A DNA stretch of 64,000 bases, taken from positions 124,001-188,000 of the forward strand of contig NZ_JAHRCU010000001.1 in assembly GCF_019083995.1 (NCBI RefSeq), written 5' to 3'. Numbering within the stretch: the stretch's first letter is position 1; each line of letters begins with the position of its first letter. This stretch comes from Roseococcus sp. SDR. Its GTDB lineage: Bacteria > Pseudomonadota > Alphaproteobacteria > Acetobacterales > Acetobacteraceae. This document shows, piece by piece, positions 56,225-64,000 of this stretch. The translations under genes and the position numbers were made by a program. The notes beneath the pieces are model-generated. The model did not search any database. It worked only from the letters and a program-made list of their open reading frames with translations, and was not told the origin of the DNA.

Positions 56225-57232
56225 TCAGGCTTCCAGCCAGGCACGTGTCGCGGATTTCAGGAATGCCGTGTCCTCGGCGAAGCCCAGCGGATTGCCGGCG
56301 CGGTGGCCATTGATGCTGGGGATGACGCGCATCTCGGCCTGGCGCAGATGCGGCAGTTCGGCGGCATTGTCGGCCACGCGGAAATAGAGGTCCGTCTCGC
56401 CCGGCATCAGCAGCACGCGCGCCTGGATGGCGGCCAGCGCGCGGGTCAGGTCCCCGCCGTAGATCGGGTTGGCGGCGATGTCCCCCGCATCCCAGCAGCG
56501 CGCCTGGGCGTAGAGGTTCGCGGCGTCGCGCGCCGTCCAGCGCGCCTCCCACTGGTTCACCAGGAAGGCTTCGAGGCTGGGTTCGCTGACCAGGTGGCGG
56601 CCGGCGCGATAGAAATCCTGGCTCAGCGCCCAGCTTGCGTAGATGCGGCCATAGGCGCGGAGTGCGGCCATGGGCGGGGCGGAAAAGCGCCCGCCGCCGA
56701 TGTGTTCCGGGGCGGCTTCCAGCACCGCCATCAGGCTGCGGAGAAACACCTGGTTGTGCACCGCGGTGCGCGCGCTGCCGCAGATGGCGATGATGCGCTC
56801 CACCGCCTCGGGGAAGATCGCGGCCCAGTGATAGGCCTGCTGCGCGCCCATGGACCAGCCATAGACGCAGGCGAGCCGCTCCACGCCGAACTGCTCCAGG
56901 AGCAGCCGACGCTGCGCCTGGACATTGTCCCAGGAGGTGACGAGCGCGGGGTAGTCCGGGTCGTTGGACGGGCTGGAGGAGAGGCCATTGGCGAACATGT
57001 CGGGCTGGAGGATGAACCAGCGCGTCGGGTCCAGGATGCCCTCCGGCCCGATCAGCCATTCCAGTTCCTGGTGCTGGGCGGAATAGCTGGTGGGGTAGAG
57101 GATGACGTTGTCCCGCGCGGGGGAGAGCGTGCCATGGGTCTTCCAGCTCAGCTTCGCGTCGCGGATCACCTCGCCCGAGAGGGTGGTCACGTCGCCCAGC
57201 GAAGTGAGGCCCGTCCGCGTCGGCCAGCCCAT
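56225..57232 (-). CDS. Alpha/beta-fold hydrolase, homoserine O-acetyltransferase-like
   Basis: A 335-residue protein. The nucleophile elbow is GWSMGA in VYGWSMGAQQAYHW, the Asp of the triad is in MPGETDLYF, and the His in SINGHRAGNP. LSWKTHGTLSPARDNVILYPTSY and FILQPDMFANGLSSSP are family segments shared with MetX. Because MetX normally has a conserved GGSMGG motif, this is more likely a paralogue that works on a CoA ester or other ester. AGGAGAG precedes the ATG at 57232. It opens the minus-strand catabolic run. Confidence 0.85.
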   Translation of the reverse strand: MGWPTRTGLTSLGDVTTLSGEVIRDAKLSWKTHGTLSPARDNVILYPTSYSAQHQELEWLIGPEGILDPTRWFILQPDMFANGLSSSPSNDPDYPALVTSWDNVQAQRRLLLEQFGVERLACVYGWSMGAQQAYHWAAIFPEAVERIIAICGSARTAVHNQVFLRSLMAVLEAAPEHIGGGRFSAPPMAALRAYGRIYASWALSQDFYRAGRHLVSEPSLEAFLVNQWEARWTARDAANLYAQARCWDAGDIAANPIYGGDLTRALAAIQARVLLMPGETDLYFRVADNAAELPHLRQAEMRVIPSINGHRAGNPLGFAEDTAFLKSATRAWLEA

Positions 57233-57299
57233 CGCACTCTCCTGTTTTTGAGACTGGCTTGGTGTAGCCGAGGCGGCGCCCGGGCGGATAGGGTCAGGC

Positions 57300-57851
57300 A
57301 TGGCTGCCATCCTTCACACCAACCGCCTGGTCCTGCGGCCACCGGTCGCGGCCGATGGCCCTGCACTCGCCGCCATCAACGGCGATGCGGCGGTGATGCG
57401 GCATTTTCCGAAGCCGCTGGACGTGACGGAGAGCGAGGCCTTCCGCGAACGCATCGCGCGGCATTTCGCGGAGCATGGATACGGCTTCTGGGTGGTGGAG
57501 CGGCAGGGGGCGGTGGTCGGTCTGGTGGGGTTGCTCAACATCCCCTGGACGGCGTGGTTCACGCCCGCCGTCGAGATCGGCTGGCGCATCGCGGCCGCGC
57601 ATCAGCGCCAGGGCTATGCGGAGGAGGCGGCGCGGGCCGCTTTGGCCCATGGCTTCGATGTTCTGGGGCTGGATGAGATCGTGGCCTTCACGATCCCGGC
57701 CAATGCCCCCTCCTGGGCGCTGATGGAGAAGCTTGGCATGGCGCGGGATGGCGGGTTCGATCACCCGAACCTGCCCGAGGGGCACCCCATGCGGAGGCAC
57801 CTTCTCTATCGCCTGCGTGCGGGGGAGAGAAATTCTGTTCGGGCGGCGTAA
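57300..57851 (+). CDS. RimJ/RimL-type GNAT acetyltransferase
   Basis: A 183-residue acetyltransferase starting LHTNRLVLRPPVAADGPALA, the standard N-terminus of the ribosomal-protein acetyltransferase-like GNAT group. The CoA loop is HQRQGYAEEAARAALAHGF, and ANAPSWALMEKLGM is the usual C-terminal helix. The substrate may be an amino acid, antibiotic or protein N-terminus. It is divergent from the hydrolase gene and its TAA stop overlaps the GTAACC motif ahead of sigF. Confidence 0.88.
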   Translation: MAAILHTNRLVLRPPVAADGPALAAINGDAAVMRHFPKPLDVTESEAFRERIARHFAEHGYGFWVVERQGAVVGLVGLLNIPWTAWFTPAVEIGWRIAAAHQRQGYAEEAARAALAHGFDVLGLDEIVAFTIPANAPSWALMEKLGMARDGGFDHPNLPEGHPMRRHLLYRLRAGERNSVRAA

Positions 57852-57873
57852 CCCTGTGCCCACCCCGCCCGTA
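57848..57873 (+). promoter_or_regulatory. Candidate SigF-type promoter of the sigF operon
   Basis: GTAACC (57848-57853) is followed after exactly 16 bases by CGTA (57870-57873). The SigF consensus of Caulobacter, as I remember it, is GTAACC-N16-CGAA, so this is one base off. It overlaps the end of the GNAT gene and lies about 97 bases before the sigF ATG, a position fitting autoregulation. A second GTAACC at 57871 has no -10 partner. Confidence 0.55.
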
Positions 57874-57969
57874 ACCGGGCAGGCGCTTTCGGGCCCGGCA
57901 TCGGGCCGGGCGGGCGCGGCCGAGGATGACCGTGTCACGTCCGACCTTGTCTGGGATGGCCTCGCCGGC

Positions 57970-58530
57970 ATGAGCGAGGCCGAGGAGCGGCCCGCGCGCG
58001 ATGCCCGCTGGTCGCAGATGATGGCGCGCGCGCAGGCCGGCGATGCGCGCGCCTATGACGCGCTGCTGCGCGAATGCCTGCCGCTGCTGCGCGCCATCTG
58101 CCGGCGGCGGCTGAGCGACCCCGCCGAGGCCGAGGACGCCGTGCAGGACACGCTGCTGACGCTGCACCGGGTGCGCGCCACCTATGACCCGGCGCGGCCC
58201 TTCCGCCCCTGGATCGCCGCGATCGCCGAGCGGCGGGCGCTGGACCGGGGGCGGGGCGTGGCGCGTGGCCTGTCGCGCCACACGGTGCTGGAGGCGGCCG
58301 AGCATGTCGGCGCCGAGGGCGATGCCGAGCGGCGGCTGGACGCGGCCGAACTGCGTGCCGCGGTCGGCGAATTGCCGGCCTCGCAGCGCACCGCGCTGCA
58401 ATTGACGAAGATCGAGGCCCTGTCGCTCGCCGAGGCCAGCGCGCGTTCGGGCATGTCGATGGGGGCGCTCAAGGTCGCCACCCATCGCGCCATCCAGACC
58501 TTGCGCCGCAAAATCGGCAAGGAGCCATGA
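57970..58530 (+). CDS. sigF: ECF RNA polymerase sigma factor, SigF type
   Basis: A 186-residue sigma factor with region 2 (AEDAVQDTLLTLHRVRATYDP) and region 4 (LPASQRTALQLTKIEALSLAEA plus GMSMGALKVATHRAIQTLR). The next gene is a DUF1109 membrane anti-sigma factor of NrsF type, overlapping by four bases, which identifies the sigma factor as SigF-like. It should be held at the membrane until a stress signal frees it. The start MSEAEE at 57970 lacks a strong ribosome site, and a longer in-frame region upstream is open but has no better start. Two likely target promoters lie at 57848 and 59864. Confidence 0.88.
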   Translation: MSEAEERPARDARWSQMMARAQAGDARAYDALLRECLPLLRAICRRRLSDPAEAEDAVQDTLLTLHRVRATYDPARPFRPWIAAIAERRALDRGRGVARGLSRHTVLEAAEHVGAEGDAERRLDAAELRAAVGELPASQRTALQLTKIEALSLAEASARSGMSMGALKVATHRAIQTLRRKIGKEP

Positions 58531-59180
58531 CCATGCGGACCGAAGAGCTCATCACCCAGTTGAGCCGCGGCTTGAAGCCGGTGCACCGGCTGCCTTCGCC
58601 GCTCGCGATGCTCGGGCTCTGGTGCCTGTTCTGCGCGGGCGTGATCGGCGCGGCCCTGCTCGTCTCTGGCCTGCGCGCCGATTTCGCCGCCTGGCTGATG
58701 GACGGGTTCGACCTCTATCACCTGATGTCCGCCGCGCTGGTGGCGCTGACGGCCGGCTATGCCGCCTTCCAGCTCGCCCTGCCCGACCGGGACCAGCGCT
58801 GGGCGCTGCTGCCGGTGCCGGCCGTGGTGGGGTGGCTCGTCACCATGGGCTGGGGCTGCCTCGAGGATCTGGCGCGGCTGGGGCCGGAGGCGCTGCAACT
58901 CGGCATCAGCCTGCCCTGTCTTGGCTTCATCATCGGGCTCGGCGTTCCGATGACGGTCGCCATCGTCTTTCTCACGCGGCATGCGGCGCTGCTGCGCCCG
59001 GTGCCGGTCGCGGCGCTGGGCGGGCTTTCGGCGGCGGCCTTCGCGAGCCTGGGCCTGACCTTGGTGCATGAGCTGAACGCGGCGGTGATGGTGCTGGTCT
59101 GGCATGGGATCGCGGTGCTGGTGGTGACGGCGCTGGGCGCCTTGGCCGGGCCGCTCCTGATGCAGCGCGCCGCGGTTTGA
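58527..59180 (+). CDS. nrsF: NrsF-like anti-sigma factor (DUF1109)
   Basis: A 217-residue inner membrane protein with about six helices and a short cytoplasmic N-terminus (RTEELITQLSRGLKPVHRL) that should bind the sigma factor. Caulobacter NrsF senses heavy metals through C131 and C181, as I recall. Here C131 is present (SLPCLGF), but residue 181 is His (TLVHELNAAVMV); other cysteines are C33, C36 and C111. The sensing chemistry may therefore differ. It is coupled to sigF by ATGA and to the DUF3047 gene by TTGA. Confidence 0.88.
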   Translation: MTMRTEELITQLSRGLKPVHRLPSPLAMLGLWCLFCAGVIGAALLVSGLRADFAAWLMDGFDLYHLMSAALVALTAGYAAFQLALPDRDQRWALLPVPAVVGWLVTMGWGCLEDLARLGPEALQLGISLPCLGFIIGLGVPMTVAIVFLTRHAALLRPVPVAALGGLSAAAFASLGLTLVHELNAAVMVLVWHGIAVLVVTALGALAGPLLMQRAAV

Positions 59181-59833
59181 CGAGCCGGCGCGGCGCGCTC
59201 GGCCTGCCGCTTGCGGCCCTGCTGGCCAGGCCTCGCACCGCCGCGGCCGAACCGCTGGACCCGCGCCTCAGCGGCGCGGGCTGGCGGCTGCAGCCGGTGC
59301 GTGGCCGCGCGGTCGCGCATTTCGCCTGGGATGAGGCGGGCTCCATCACCGTCACGGCGCGGGATGCCGTGGGCTTCCTGCTGCGCCCCTTTCCCGGCCC
59401 GCCCGGGCGCCTCGCCTGGCGCTGGCGGGTGGAGAGCGCGGCCCCGCCGAGCGATGCGGCGATCCGTGGCGCCGATGATCGCTCCGCCGCCGTGCATGTG
59501 CTCTTCGCCGCGAGCGGCCCGCTCTCCTTCATGCGCCGTGGCTTGACGCCCGAGGGCATGGCCGGGCGCGGCCTGACCTATTGCTGGGGCGGCGGGCCGC
59601 CCGGCCGGCGGCTGCCCAACCCCTATGCGCCGCGCGATGGCGCGGTGATCATCCTGCGGGGCACGGAGGCGCCGCTGGCGACCTGGCTGGAGGAGGTGGT
59701 GGATGTCGCCGCCGATCACCGGCTGGCCTTCGGCGAGGAGGCGCCGGCCGTGACGCATATCGCGCTCTCGGCCGATACGGATGATCGTGGGGGCCTCGCG
59801 GTGGCGCGCATCATGCCGCCGCGCTGGCTGTGA
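59177..59833 (+). CDS. DUF3047 family exported protein
   Basis: A 218-residue protein with a short signal sequence (RRGALGLPLAALLARPRTAAA). The rest is a beta-rich DUF3047 domain with GRLAWRWRVESA, GRGLTYCWGGG and FGEEAPAVTHIALSADTDD, a carbohydrate-binding-module-like fold. Function is unknown. The start is a TTG at 59177 overlapping the nrsF stop, so it is the third gene of the sigF operon and probably a periplasmic partner in the same response. Confidence 0.8.
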   Translation: MTSRRGALGLPLAALLARPRTAAAEPLDPRLSGAGWRLQPVRGRAVAHFAWDEAGSITVTARDAVGFLLRPFPGPPGRLAWRWRVESAAPPSDAAIRGADDRSAAVHVLFAASGPLSFMRRGLTPEGMAGRGLTYCWGGGPPGRRLPNPYAPRDGAVIILRGTEAPLATWLEEVVDVAADHRLAFGEEAPAVTHIALSADTDDRGGLAVARIMPPRWL

Positions 59834-59863
59834 CGATCGTGCTGCGATGCCCGCCGAAGGCGC

Positions 59864-59889
59864 GTAACCTTGCCGCCGGAGCCGGCGAA
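59864..59889 (+). promoter_or_regulatory. SigF-type promoter, perfect GTAACC-N16-CGAA
   Basis: GTAACC (59864-59869) and CGAA (59886-59889) are separated by exactly 16 bases, the full Caulobacter SigF consensus as I remember it. The start point would fall near 59896, giving a leader of about 22 bases before the ATG at 59918, with an ACAGG ribosome site between. It sits in the 84-base gap after DUF3047, so the second block of genes has its own entry for the sigma factor encoded just upstream. Confidence 0.75.
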
Positions 59890-59917
59890 CCCGGCACAGC
59901 GCAGCGACAGGCCCCGC

Positions 59918-61375
59918 ATGACCCATGATGACATTCCGCCGGCGGCAGCCCGCCGGCCGCGCCTGAAGGGCGACGTGCTGCACGCCGATCTCTGCGTGAT
60001 CGGCGCGGGCTCGGCCGGGCTCTCGCTGGCGGCGGGCGCGGTGCAGATGGGCGCCTCGGTCGTGCTGATCGAGAAGCACCGCATGGGGGGCGATTGCCTG
60101 AACACGGGCTGCGTCCCCTCCAAGGCGCTGCTGGCGGCGGCGCATGCGGCGGAGGCGGCGCGTGGAGCGGCGCGCTTCGGCGTGGATGTGGCCGCGCCCG
60201 TGGTGGATTTCGCCCGCGTGCATGCGCATGTGCAGGGGGTCATCGCGGCCATCGCCCCGCATGACAGCGTGGAGCGCTTCGAGGGGCTGGGCTGCACCGT
60301 GATCCGCGCCGCGGCGCGCTTCACCGGCCCGGCCGAGGTGGCGGCGGATGGCCAGCGCATCCGCGCGCGGCGCTTCGTGGTGGCGACGGGTTCGAGCCCC
60401 GCCATCCCGCCCGTGCCGGGCCTCTCCGAGACGCCCTATCTGACGAACGAGACGATCTTCGAGCTGACCGAGCGGCCGGAGCACCTGCTGGTGCTGGGCG
60501 GTGGCCCCATCGGCATCGAGATGGCGCAGGCGTTTCGCGGCCTCGGTTCCGAAGTCACCGTGATCCAGCGCGGCCCCATCCTGCCGCGCGATGAGCCCGA
60601 GGCGGTGGCGATCCTGCGCGAGGGCCTGACGCGCCAGGGCATCACGCTGATCGAGGGTGCGGAGGTGGCGCGCATCGCGCCCGGCCTGCGGGTGACGCTG
60701 GCCGATGGCACGGAGATCGCCGGCTCGCATCTGCTGGTGGCGGCGGGGCGCAAGCCGCATCTGGATGGGCTGGACCTGCCGCTCGCGGGCGTCGAGACCA
60801 CGGCGCGGGGCATCACGGTGGATGCGCGGCTGCGCTCCAGCAACAGGCGCGTCTTCGCGGCGGGCGATGTGGCGGGCGGGCCGCAATTCACCCATGTGGC
60901 GGGCTATCACGCGGGCGTGCTGATCCGGAACATCCTCTTCGGCCTGCCCGCGAAGGTGGATTACGCGGCCCTGCCCTGGGTGACCTATTGCGACCCCGAG
61001 CTCGCGCATGTGGGCCTGACCGAGGCCGAGGCGCGGCTGGCGAGCCACCCGGTGCAGGTGCTGCTGCAGCCGCTCGCCGGCAATGACCGCGCGGTGGCCG
61101 AGCGCAGCACGGAGGGGCTGGCCAAGATCATCCTGGGCGGCGGCGGGCGCATCCTGGGTGCGACGATCCTCGCACCCCGCGCGGGCGAGATGATCGGCCT
61201 CTGGGGCCTCGCCATCCAGCAGCGGCTGAAGATCGGCGCGGTCGCGCAGATGATGGCGCCCTATCCGACGATGTCGGAGCTTTCGAAGCGCGCGGCGGGC
61301 GGCTTCTACACGCCCTCGCTGTTCTCGGCGCGGACGCGGCGCATCGTGGGCTGGATCCAGAGGCTGCTGCCATGA
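59918..61375 (+). CDS. MerA-like pyridine nucleotide-disulfide oxidoreductase
   Basis: A 485-residue FAD enzyme. The FAD loop is VIGAGSAGLSLAAG, the redox disulfide is C60/C65 in GGDCLNTGCVPSK, and the NAD(P) loop is VLGGGPIGIEMA. Near the C-terminus PYPTMSELSKRAAGGF has Tyr where dihydrolipoamide dehydrogenase has its catalytic His, as in mercuric reductase, but there is no C-terminal vicinal Cys pair and no N-terminal metal-binding domain. It is therefore not a proven mercuric reductase; it may reduce a disulfide, metal or thiol adduct. It is the first gene behind the SigF promoter. Confidence 0.9.
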   Translation: MTHDDIPPAAARRPRLKGDVLHADLCVIGAGSAGLSLAAGAVQMGASVVLIEKHRMGGDCLNTGCVPSKALLAAAHAAEAARGAARFGVDVAAPVVDFARVHAHVQGVIAAIAPHDSVERFEGLGCTVIRAAARFTGPAEVAADGQRIRARRFVVATGSSPAIPPVPGLSETPYLTNETIFELTERPEHLLVLGGGPIGIEMAQAFRGLGSEVTVIQRGPILPRDEPEAVAILREGLTRQGITLIEGAEVARIAPGLRVTLADGTEIAGSHLLVAAGRKPHLDGLDLPLAGVETTARGITVDARLRSSNRRVFAAGDVAGGPQFTHVAGYHAGVLIRNILFGLPAKVDYAALPWVTYCDPELAHVGLTEAEARLASHPVQVLLQPLAGNDRAVAERSTEGLAKIILGGGGRILGATILAPRAGEMIGLWGLAIQQRLKIGAVAQMMAPYPTMSELSKRAAGGFYTPSLFSARTRRIVGWIQRLLP

Positions 61376-62073
61376 GGCTCCTGCGGGACAAGCGGCTCTG
61401 GCTGGCGCTGGGCGTGCTGGCCCTGCTCCTCGCGTTGCGCGCGGCGGGCCTTGGCGAGCTGCTCTCGCTCGATACGCTGGCGCGGCACCGGGAGGCGCTG
61501 GCGGGATTCGTCGCGCGCAACGCGCTGCTGGCGGCGGGCGGCTTCGTGCTGGTCTATGCGGCGGCGGTGGCGCTCTCCGTCCCGGGGGCGATCATCCTGA
61601 CGCTCGCGGGCGGCTTTCTCTTCGGCGCGGTGCTGGGCACGCTGCTCACGGTGCTGGGCGCCACCATCGGCGCCACGCTCGTCTTTCTCTTCGCGCGCAC
61701 CATCTTCGGCGAGAACGCGCTGGACCGCTTCGGCGCGCCGGCGCAGCGCCTGGCCGAGGGCATCCGCCGCAACGCCGCCTCCTACCTGCTGGTGCTGCGC
61801 CTCGTGCCGCTGTTTCCCTTCTTCCTCGTCAATCTCGTGCCGGCCTTCGTCGGCGTGCGGTTGCCGATCTACGTGCTCACCACCTTCTTCGGCATCATGC
61901 CCGGCACCTTCGTCTTCAGCCTCAGCGGCGCGGGGCTGGGCTCCATCCTGGATGCGGGCGGCACGCTCGACCTCGGTTCCGTGCTCACGCCGCAGATCCT
62001 GGGCGCGCTGTTGGGGCTGGCCGCGCTCTCGCTCGCCGCCATCCCGCTGAAGAACAGGTTTGCCGCCAAATGA
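61372..62073 (+). CDS. TVP38/TMEM64 (DedA-like) membrane protein
   Basis: A 233-residue protein with five or six helices. The SNARE-associated core shows as LSVPGAIILTLAGGFLFGAVLGT, then LRLVPLFPFFLVNLVPAFVGV, both diagnostic. Homologues act as lipid scramblases or transporters in the inner membrane. It overlaps the flavoprotein gene by four bases and DUF547 by four, so it is translated together with them. Confidence 0.9.
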   Translation: MRLLRDKRLWLALGVLALLLALRAAGLGELLSLDTLARHREALAGFVARNALLAAGGFVLVYAAAVALSVPGAIILTLAGGFLFGAVLGTLLTVLGATIGATLVFLFARTIFGENALDRFGAPAQRLAEGIRRNAASYLLVLRLVPLFPFFLVNLVPAFVGVRLPIYVLTTFFGIMPGTFVFSLSGAGLGSILDAGGTLDLGSVLTPQILGALLGLAALSLAAIPLKNRFAAK

Positions 62074-62849
62074 TCCGCCGTCGCAGCCTGGCCGCCGCGC
62101 TGCTGATCCCGGCCGCGGCCGGCGCCGCCGAGCCGGGGCTCGACGCGCTGCTCGCCCGCTACGCCGCCACGCCGGCCGATGGCGTGACGCGCGTCGCCTA
62201 TGCGCGCTGGAAGGCAAATGCGGCGGATATGGCGGCCCTCGATGCCTGGATCGCCGAGGCGGCCACGCGCCGCCCCTCCGCCATGCCGCGCCAGGAGGCC
62301 TTCGCCTTCTGGGCCAATCTCTACAATGCGCTGACGCTCAAGGTCGTGCTGGAGCGCTATCCCGTGCGCTCGATCAAGGAGATCCGCTCGACCGGCGTGG
62401 GCCTCGATCCGCGCCAGTTCCTCGGGCCCTGGCGCACGCGCCTCGTCACCATCGAGGGGGCGCGGCTATCGCTCGACGATATCGAGCATGGCACGATGCG
62501 CCCGACCTTCCGGGACCCGCGCGTGCATTACGCGGTGAACTGCGCCTCCATCGGCTGCCCCAACCTGCCGCTGCGCGCCTGGCGCGCGGCGAGCCTGGAG
62601 GCGGATCTGGACGCCGCCGCCCGCGCCTTCGTGAACCATCCGCGTGGGGCCGCGTTGCTCCCTGGCGGGGGGTTGCGCGTCTCCTCCATCTATCGCTGGT
62701 TCCGCGAGGATTTCGGCGGCGATGATGCGGGGGTGATCACGCATCTCGCACGCTACGCCGCGCCGCCACTGGCCGGCGCGCTGCGAAATCTCACCCGCGT
62801 CACGGAAGATGCCTATGATTGGGCGTTGAACGACGCGACACCGAACTGA
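62070..62849 (+). CDS. DUF547 family exported protein
   Basis: A 259-residue protein with signal sequence IRRRSLAAALLIPAAAGAAE. The DUF547 core is clear: FAFWANLYNALTLKVVLER, then VHYAVNCASIGCPNLPLRAW with two conserved Cys, and a C-terminal SSIYRWFREDFGG. The fold and the conserved Asn, His and Cys recall transglutaminase-like cysteine enzymes, but no activity is known. It overlaps the TVP38 gene by four bases and lies 18 bases before the radical SAM gene. Confidence 0.88.
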   Translation: MIRRRSLAAALLIPAAAGAAEPGLDALLARYAATPADGVTRVAYARWKANAADMAALDAWIAEAATRRPSAMPRQEAFAFWANLYNALTLKVVLERYPVRSIKEIRSTGVGLDPRQFLGPWRTRLVTIEGARLSLDDIEHGTMRPTFRDPRVHYAVNCASIGCPNLPLRAWRAASLEADLDAAARAFVNHPRGAALLPGGGLRVSSIYRWFREDFGGDDAGVITHLARYAAPPLAGALRNLTRVTEDAYDWALNDATPN

Positions 62850-62867
62850 TTCCCGGAGAGCACCGCC

Positions 62868-63821
62868 TTGTCCCTTCGCAGCCAGACCACGACGCCGCTC
62901 CTGCCCGGCAAGTTCCAGGACCCGGTGCTGACGCTGAAGGGCGAGCGGCGCGCGACGGTCGCGCTCACTGCGTTGGAGACGCTCTGGTTCAACACCGGCA
63001 CGCTCTGCAACATCACCTGCGCCAATTGCTACATCGAGAGCAGCCCGCGCAATGATGCGCTGGTCTATCTGAGCGCTGCCGAGGTGCGGGCGTATCTGGA
63101 CGAGGCCGCGGATTTTCCGGTGCGCGAGGTGGGCTTCACCGGCGGCGAGCCCTTCATGAACCCCGACCTCGTGCCGATGCTGGACGATGTGCTCTCGCGC
63201 GGGCTGAGGGCCCTGGTGCTGACCAATGCGATGCAGCCCATGCGGCGCTATGCCGCCCAGCTCCTGGCGCTGCGCGCGAAGCATGGCACGGACAACCTCA
63301 TCCTGCGCGTCAGCCTCGATCATCACGACGCCGCCATCCATGACCTCGAGCGCGGCGCGGGCAGCTTCGCGCGCACCATGGAGGGGCTGGTCTGGCTGGC
63401 GCGCGAGGGGTTCCAGCTGCACGTCGCGGGCCGCGCGGGCTTCGGCGCGGAGGATGAGGCGGCGATGCGCGCGGGCTTCGCGGGCCTCTTCGCCGAATGG
63501 GGCATCCCCGTGGACGCGCATGATCCCGTGGCGCTGATGCTCTTCCCCGAGATGGATGCGGGGCGCGACGTGCCCGAGATCACCGAGGCCTGCTGGGGCA
63601 TCCTCAAGAAATCTCCGGATTCGATGATGTGCGCCTCCTCCCGCATGGTGGTGAAGCGCAAGGGCGCCGCGCGCCCCGCCGTTCTGGCCTGCACGCTGCT
63701 CGCTTATGACGAGCGCTTCGAACTGGGCGCGACCCTGACCGAAGCGGCGCGGCCCGTCTCGCTGAACCATCCGCATTGCGCCACCTTCTGCGTGCTGGGC
63801 GGGGCGGCCTGCAGCCGGTGA
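62868..63821 (+). CDS. Radical SAM protein with Cys-rich C-terminus
   Basis: A 317-residue radical SAM enzyme from a TTG start behind GGAGAG. The cluster motif is C47, C51, C54 in CNITCANC (CX3CX2C), and the SAM-binding GGE is in FTGGEPFMNPD. Six more cysteines follow in the C-terminal quarter (C242, C255, C275, C304, C308, C315), enough for an auxiliary Fe-S cluster of SPASM or Twitch kind. The substrate is unknown. No small precursor peptide gene is visible in the window, so a peptide-modifying role is only a possibility. It is the fourth gene in the SigF-promoter block. Confidence 0.85.
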   Translation: MSLRSQTTTPLLPGKFQDPVLTLKGERRATVALTALETLWFNTGTLCNITCANCYIESSPRNDALVYLSAAEVRAYLDEAADFPVREVGFTGGEPFMNPDLVPMLDDVLSRGLRALVLTNAMQPMRRYAAQLLALRAKHGTDNLILRVSLDHHDAAIHDLERGAGSFARTMEGLVWLAREGFQLHVAGRAGFGAEDEAAMRAGFAGLFAEWGIPVDAHDPVALMLFPEMDAGRDVPEITEACWGILKKSPDSMMCASSRMVVKRKGAARPAVLACTLLAYDERFELGATLTEAARPVSLNHPHCATFCVLGGAACSR

Positions 63822-64000
63822 TGCTGGACTTCGTGCCGCTCAGCGCGCGGCCGGACCTGGCCGATGCGCTGGACACGCCGGAATTCCGCGCGCTCTGGCC
63901 GGAATTCATGATGCATGACCCGGCGGCCGATCTGCGCTTCAGCGAGGCGGCCTTCGCGCGCTGGCTCGACTTCAGCTTCGCCATCCTCGATCCGGCCGCG
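63821..64000 (+). CDS. Partial protein, possibly a GNAT-like enzyme (cut by window edge)
   Basis: Sixty residues are visible from the ATG at 63821, which overlaps the radical SAM stop as TGATG. The sequence starts MLDFVPLSARPDLADAL and goes on with FRALWPEFMMHDPAADL, similar to the N-terminus of some acetyltransferase-like proteins, but too little is present for a firm call. It belongs to the same operon and could be decisive for the function of the cluster. Confidence 0.5.
   Translation, partial: MLDFVPLSARPDLADALDTPEFRALWPEFMMHDPAADLRFSEAAFARWLDFSFAILDPAA

Follow-up and report, generated by a model that had tools for sequence, protein, structure and literature searches.

The DNA described here is a 64,000-nt stretch, referred to below as the window (positions 124001–188000 of contig C1, NZ_JAHRCU010000001.1, in the 5.0-Mb genome of Roseococcus sp. 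SDR). Toward its end, on the + strand throughout, genes for a SigF-like extracytoplasmic function (ECF) sigma factor and its NrsF anti-sigma factor stand in front of an operon encoding a radical S-adenosylmethionine (SAM) enzyme, and it is the control and the role of this operon that concern us. The locus begins with P1, a predicted promoter site of the ECF16 type (GTAACC-N16-CGTA, 57848–57873), followed by sigF (57970–58530), whose product scores above the cut-offs of Sigma70_r2 and r4_2. Because the longest open frame spans P1, the start of sigF is probably the ATG at 57970. The gene overlaps nrsF (58527–59180; PF06532, 89.8 bits, cut-off 26.8; cysteines at 33, 36, 111 and 131) by 4 bp (58527–58530), and nrsF in turn overlaps a DUF3047 gene (59177–59833; PF11249, 90.2 bits) by 4 bp. 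A second predicted ECF16-type site, P2 (GTAACC-N16-CGAA, 59864–59889), precedes genes for a MerA-like flavin adenine dinucleotide (FAD) disulfide oxidoreductase with a CxxxxC active site (59918–61375), a TVP38/VTT membrane protein (61372–62073; PF09335, 71.9 bits), a DUF547 protein whose start looks by eye like a signal peptide (62070–62849; PF04784, 84.6 bits) and the radical SAM enzyme (62868–63821; PF04055, 55.2 bits), which has a CxxxCxxC motif and further conserved C-terminal cysteines. The next gene is cut by the window end, leaving only its start (63821–64000), and encodes a 252-aa protein that matches no family; the protein appears GNAT-like by eye, yet no model matched and we keep it unnamed. 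Beyond the window the operon extends through this gene and those for PhnD, PhnE and a metallophosphatase, reaching position 191003 of C1.

A first-pass annotation of this stretch had reported both sites, which are where it put them, and had called the ECF sigma factor, NrsF, FAD disulfide oxidoreductase, VTT/TVP38, DUF547 and radical SAM genes, all of which are borne out by domain models. Its description of P2 as lying directly behind the sigma and anti-sigma genes overlooked the intervening DUF3047 gene, and the operon, which it had closed at 63821, runs on through four further genes. Neighboring genes overlap by a few bases or leave a gap of 18 bp, the exception being a gap of 84 bp at P2 between the DUF3047 and MerA-like genes, and because of this spacing we infer two operons, one comprising sigF-nrsF-DUF3047 and the other running from the MerA-like gene onward. 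On the 5′ side of sigF are a MetX-like hydrolase gene and a GNAT gene (window 56225–57851), an order kept in two close congeners (L063 and L065). One congener genome (G015) contains two cassettes of this kind (L063 and L074), both of which have a sigF/nrsF pair and sites of their own.

The overlapping ECF sigma factor and NrsF (DUF1109) genes, and the predicted GTAACC-N16-CGAA-type promoters before both sigF and its putative targets, are as expected of ECF group 16. Among the 25 of 64 NCBIfam matches listed for SigF, the specific sigma models are all below cut-off and the general sigma70-ECF superfamily model is the one that passes. The pair, the site and a DoxX-type target are shared with the SigF/NrsF system described for Caulobacter crescentus (PMC3511200), although the DoxX-like protein of the window genome remains below the Pfam cut-off (22.9 bits, cut-off 26.3). 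The main targets reported in the Caulobacter study are DUF2282/DUF692/DUF2063 operons (PMC3511200), as the first-pass annotation had stated for DUF2282/DUF692 genes, whereas here we find a MerA-like/TVP38/DUF547/radical SAM/PhnDE operon. A scan of ten proteins encoded near sigF found no DUF2282 or DUF692 protein (no genome-wide search was made), and related plasmid-borne nrsF genes do flank DUF2282/DUF692 genes. EcfF/OsrA of Bradyrhizobium (PMC3420878) and BcrS/AbcS of Brucella (PMC8315932) are likewise described as group 16 systems with an NrsF-family anti-sigma factor, GTAAC-type sites and methionine sulfoxide reductase targets, the last of which have a counterpart in a weakly conserved msrA site of the window genome; they differ in that the window operon is not among the targets given in Table 3 of the former study or in the account of BcrS in the latter.

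Caulobacter NrsF is reported to use C131 and C181 (PMC3511200). The C131 position is a cysteine in 19/19 aligned NrsFs, and the C111 position in 18/19, including plasmid NrsFs beside DUF692 genes. An HC in the NrsF of a Caulobacter metagenome-assembled genome (MAG; locus L125), presumed to correspond to C181, is HE in the window NrsF, which thus has the C131 position and C111 and apparently lacks the C181 partner of the Caulobacter pair (PMC3511200). The NrsFs form two cysteine types, one with C111 and C131 and the other with C131 and a later HC, as in L125. The cysteine pair of the window NrsF, seen in 14/15, was considered as a mark of the cassette and dropped, as it is shared by the plasmid NrsFs beside DUF692 genes. 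The sensing cysteines may therefore differ from those of Caulobacter without being specific to the cassette.

Within the window, GTAACC-N15–17-CGWA has only two matches, at 57848 and 59864, and 100 shuffled sequences gave a mean of 0.01 matches and never two. A scan of the whole genome, which the first-pass annotation had proposed, gave 16 matches against 62 for the reversed motif and hence no enrichment; the evidence for SigF control therefore rests on position and conservation, not on counts. The scan did yield matches before the DoxX-like gene, a catalase-family gene and msrA. Conservation was checked for these 3 of the 16 sites, chosen because their genes resembled known ECF16 or oxidative-stress targets, and two more of the 16 are P1 and P2. 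Within the genus (window genome counted in) the DoxX-like gene is preceded by the site in 8/11 loci, two of which (L318 and L319) share identical sites, and the catalase-like gene in 8/12, two of them from one genome, with no occurrence of the reversed pattern in either set. Two other matches (C15:24080 in L010 and C25:56489 in L016) lie shortly 5′ of genes, one encoding a patatin-like phospholipase and the other a small protein that Pfam does not match.

Among close relatives in which the start of the MerA-like gene is intact, the site before this gene is kept in 7/11 loci (L063, L064, L065, L067, L069, L070 and L071), with spacers that differ. It is not kept in L066, a congener that has sigF and the operon with no exact site before the MerA-like gene, nor in L068, L072 and L073. 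One could argue from these four loci, from a motif no commoner in the genome than its reversed control, and from the co-directional position of the operon behind sigF-nrsF-DUF3047, that P2 is fortuitous and that the operon is read from some other promoter or by read-through from sigF. We find this scarcely credible: the position is retained through changing spacers in the seven loci, the sites follow the genes when these are split from sigF (see below), and no sigma-70-like promoter was found in 57700–64000, which is a weak test at this G+C content.

Conservation extends to more distant loci. Of 148 loci, 137 were kept after removal of duplicates and of those with less than 100 bp upstream, and the motif was found in the 300 bp preceding the radical SAM gene in 22/137, the MerA-like gene in 12/27 relatives' loci (where matches may include paralogues) and sigF in 9/13, with no reversed pattern in any of the three. 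The corresponding counts are lower for the metallophosphatase gene (3/28, reversed 1), DUF547 (1/18, reversed 0) and PhnD (1/17, reversed 0), and random 300-bp windows from the same loci contain the motif in 95/27400 cases, true sites counted in. The 22 loci with a radical SAM site are mostly from Acetobacteraceae but also from a Caulobacter MAG, Rhabdaerophilum, a Devosia MAG and a Methylobacterium MAG. A scan for words of a 5-mer and a 3-mer separated by 15–19 bases in 246 upstream regions ranked GTAAC-N18-GAA first and GTAAC-N17-CGA second, in 40 and 39 regions, respectively, where base composition alone would predict 0.17 and 0.32. It was unselected for 223 of the 246 regions, the remaining 23 coming from the catalase-like and DoxX-like families chosen for having sites. 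Conservation across relatives and the word scan together rule out a chance motif.

Where the cassette is split, in relatives from Roseomonas, Caulobacter, Rhabdaerophilum and Methylobacterium, the sites go with the genes. The Caulobacter MAG (L125) has three units with one site each, namely sigF, the radical SAM gene and DUF547-TVP38-MerA-like. A Roseomonas MAG (L097) has five sites, before sigF, the MerA-like gene, the radical SAM gene, a TIGR04282-related gene whose product is 32% identical to the TIGR04282 member of L125, and a rhodanese gene. In Methylobacterium (L167) and Rhabdaerophilum (L157), GTAACG variants are found at the radical SAM, MerA-like and metallophosphatase units. In L125 and L097 sigF/nrsF lie within the fetched stretch.

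Several observations weigh against a general link between SigF and the cassette. The fetched stretches of the site-bearing loci L095, L096, L157, L160 and L167 contain no sigF (the rest of these genomes was not searched), and the msrA site is kept in just 2/17 genus loci (reversed pattern 0). Across 385 Alphaproteobacteria, NrsF occurs in 76 genomes and this radical SAM enzyme in 115 (in one, G151, as a far weaker match than in the others), and the two coincide in 15/385 against 22.7 expected (odds ratio 0.51, Fisher p 0.036). In none of 40 loci sampled across the class does a site lie in the 300 bp preceding the radical SAM gene. Among them, 15 loci from 14 genomes with both NrsF and the radical SAM enzyme (window genome excluded) have sites in L255 only, one of them before the metallophosphatase gene, and 25 loci from NrsF-less genomes have a single site, in L289, 2.5 kb downstream. 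A class-wide link was thus not found, the two showing if anything a weak negative association, and we have accordingly narrowed the claim to particular lineages. The view of the first-pass annotation that the same sigma factor is wired to this gene set is upheld by the conserved sites for some lineages and not beyond them; within those lineages, to which the predicted sites indicate the wiring is confined, SigF very probably controls the radical SAM operon. A cassette on plasmid p546-1 of Roseomonas haemaphysalidis (L352:6034-17130), where no SigF-type site was found, has two adjacent radical SAM genes and two DUF547 genes.

The radical SAM enzyme is 56–93% identical to its own family (alignment A1), which keeps CxxxCxxC and the further C-terminal cysteines (alignments A1 and A2), and its model scores include 100.7 bits for Rv1681, 63.3 for StsB and 57.8 for ArsS, all far under cut-off. 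ArsS is cited as the radical SAM enzyme that adenosylates arsenic in arsenosugar biosynthesis (PMC12159101). Membership in ArsS is ruled out by score, and only 1/60 relatives exceeds the ArsS cut-off. The enzyme also ends differently, in an HCxxFCVLGGxxCS-like sequence instead of the ArsS motif HCxxCTAGxGSSC, although both have a cysteine-rich C-terminus. Alignment of the two families by hhalign gave 98.7% probability over 214 columns, with no control family compared and with other radical SAM models also scoring, which hints that the core may be homologous to that of ArsS. In a structure model (predicted local distance difference test, pLDDT, 88.4), the first Foldseek matches are BlsE, SuiB, SkfB and EpeE, with TM-scores of 0.6 or less.

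The neighborhood suggests a link to ArsS. At E 1e-50 or better, ArsS is found in 2/385 Alphaproteobacteria and in 116/398 Pseudomonadota, and from the 118 genomes with a match we took 21 loci, about one per family. Near these lie genes for MerA-like proteins (11 loci), TVP38 (10), TIGR04282-type (9) and TIGR04283-type (8) proteins, a phosphorylase (5), DUF3047 (4), DUF547 (2), and PhnD with metallophosphatase (2), while 20 control windows of 19.9 kb, whose round-numbered positions were chosen by hand in 10 genomes from each set, contain a MerA-like gene in 2 and none of the other ArsS-partner genes. In turn, of 80 named loci, 19 have a TIGR04283-like and 20 a TIGR04282-like gene close to the radical SAM gene, and the 40 class-sample loci have 9 and 10. 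These neighborhood counts, and those for the genus and family loci below, include duplicates (L065 and L092, for instance, are one locus). Genes of L125 exceed the cut-offs of both TIGR04283 and TIGR04282, each named as an arsenosugar biosynthesis glycosyltransferase. The first-pass annotation knew of no assigned pathway for the combination of genes at the locus; because TVP38, MerA-like, DUF3047, DUF547 and TIGR04282/04283-type genes recur beside ArsS, it does have a precedent, although no paper describing the combination itself was found in the one open library searched.

The sole alphaproteobacterial ArsS cassettes found, in G049 and G182 from one genus, contain PhnD, PhnE, PhnC, metallophosphatase and TVP38-MerA, and have GTAAC[CG]-N15-CGAA sites before PhnD and before a TIGR04282-like gene, the flanks of the former site being alike in the two genomes and those of the latter not. 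Both genomes have NrsF, away from the ArsS cassette, and the remaining 19 ArsS loci have one SigF-type site in total. The metallophosphatase has cysteines 84, 86 and 94 (DCGCGFEE...C) in both the window cassette (L017:3168-4004) and the G049 ArsS cassette (L200:12284-13117). In the latter, beside ArsS, TVP38 and the MerA-like flavoprotein are fused into one protein of 710 aa (L200:7751-9883), and this fusion suggests that the two act together.

Other features speak against an ArsS-type reading. The Rv1681 and StsB models give the radical SAM enzyme higher scores than the ArsS model TIGR04167, which it fails by a wide margin (57.8 bits, cut-off 300). No TIGR04282/04283-type gene is above threshold in the 21 loci of the same genus and family (L074 has a weaker match), and the TIGR04283 member of the window genome is on a different contig. 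The window operon lacks glycosyltransferases, phosphorylase and PhnC, and DUF3047 is beside nrsF in only 2/21 genus and family loci. On balance we lean slightly toward an ArsS-type reading of the operon, its radical SAM enzyme being a divergent one; that the element it handles is arsenic is possible but doubtful.

The transporter genes could be taken to indicate a role in the uptake and processing of reduced phosphorus (hypophosphite, phosphite or a phosphonate, for example), in which case SigF would have been recruited for some other reason. The binding protein and the permease pass the phosphate/phosphite/phosphonate ATP-binding cassette transporter models TIGR01098 (156.4 bits, cut-off 112.05) and TIGR01097 (242.9 bits, cut-off 216.7), PhnE being above cut-off, while PhnD does not reach the narrower model TIGR03431 (167.5 of 261.1). 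Among the HtxB/PtxB/PhnD oxyanion binders PhnD most resembles HtxB (E 7.5e-76, residues 23–281 of 284 aligned), and Trp52 of the HtxB binding pocket aligns with its Trp67, as counted by hand. HtxB is reported to bind hypophosphite at 0.56 µM and phosphite only above 10 mM, with no binding shown for phosphate or methylphosphonate (PMC5700983). Against such a role, the operon proteins match no phosphite or hypophosphite oxidase and no carbon–phosphorus lyase family (the 252-aa protein matches nothing), and the same PhnD, PhnE, PhnC and metallophosphatase stand beside genuine ArsS in two genomes. Unlike the HtxB, PtxB and PhnD systems, moreover, the window operon has no ATPase gene between PhnE and metallophosphatase; a PhnC-like gene does occur in L097, L157 and others. 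We regard a pathway dedicated to reduced phosphorus as quite improbable, and retain hypophosphite-like oxyanions, beside arsenic, as candidate substrates of an ArsS-type cassette.

The flavoprotein has the fold and the CxxxxC redox pair of MerA, and its nearest solved structures are mercuric reductases. A mercuric reductase requires a C-terminal cysteine pair. The window protein has cysteines only at 26, 60, 65, 126 and 358, so that both this pair and the N-terminal metal-binding domain are missing, and it scores 372.1 bits on the mercuric reductase model (cut-off 454.45). By the score and the absent pair it is ruled out as a true mercuric reductase. In the DUF547 protein an NCAS-xx-CPN stretch is invariant (alignment A4, 11 sequences), and a model built from 11 sequences (pLDDT 82) found no solved-fold match at E 0.001.

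Alternatively, SigF may drive the operon for repair after oxidant, chlorine or thiol stress, with the radical SAM enzyme maturing a stress enzyme or peptide and arsenic uninvolved. The further predicted SigF targets, namely the catalase-like, DoxX-like and msrA genes, fit such a role, DoxX and methionine sulfoxide repair genes being known ECF16 targets (PMC3511200, Table 1; PMC3420878, Table 3), and the radical SAM fold does match peptide-modifying enzymes as well as BlsE. The inducers reported for related systems point in more than one direction: for ECF16 systems the inducer is H2O2 in Bradyrhizobium (PMC3420878) and hypochlorous acid in Brucella (PMC8315932), whereas in Caulobacter chromate, cadmium and copper are given as inducers and reactive-oxygen generators as not inducing the SigF regulon (PMC3511200), and the Sinorhizobium reporters described were not induced by H2O2, cadmium or chromate (PMC6180224). 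No gene for a precursor peptide came to notice, although none was specifically searched for, and stress repair would account neither for PhnD/PhnE nor for the TIGR04282/04283-type partners of relatives or the neighborhood shared with ArsS. We therefore consider stress repair rather unlikely, and cautiously favor an ECF16 regulon that has as a main target an ArsS-type cassette whose radical SAM enzyme is divergent.

Such a regulon could work as follows. By analogy with its relatives, stress would reach the cysteines of NrsF and release SigF, which would then start the sigF-nrsF-DUF3047 transcript from P1, the eight-gene operon from the MerA-like gene to the metallophosphatase gene from P2, and the DoxX-like and catalase-like genes elsewhere. 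In this alphaproteobacterial counterpart of the arsenosugar cassette, the divergent radical SAM enzyme would take the place of ArsS. PhnD/PhnE would import a small oxyanion, the flavoprotein would reduce it or guard thiols, and the radical SAM enzyme would add a SAM-derived group to it in the manner of ArsS, the outcome being detoxification or a biosynthetic route. More tentatively still, the radical SAM family, found in 115/385 Alphaproteobacteria where ArsS is found in 2/385, may replace ArsS in making carbon–metalloid or carbon–phosphorus bonds, and SigF may have taken the cassette over in several lineages, replacing the metal-binding-peptide operon or adding to it.

If this is correct, the SigF/NrsF switch, which serves metal-chelating peptides elsewhere, would here have been rewired to an organo-element pathway, and a first functional hypothesis would be available for a common radical SAM family that has no curated model. 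It would also account for the presence of arsenosugar-type partner genes in Alphaproteobacteria without ArsS. The several transcription units per genome under one motif provide a testable set of promoters, which could reveal both the inducing stress and the substrate.

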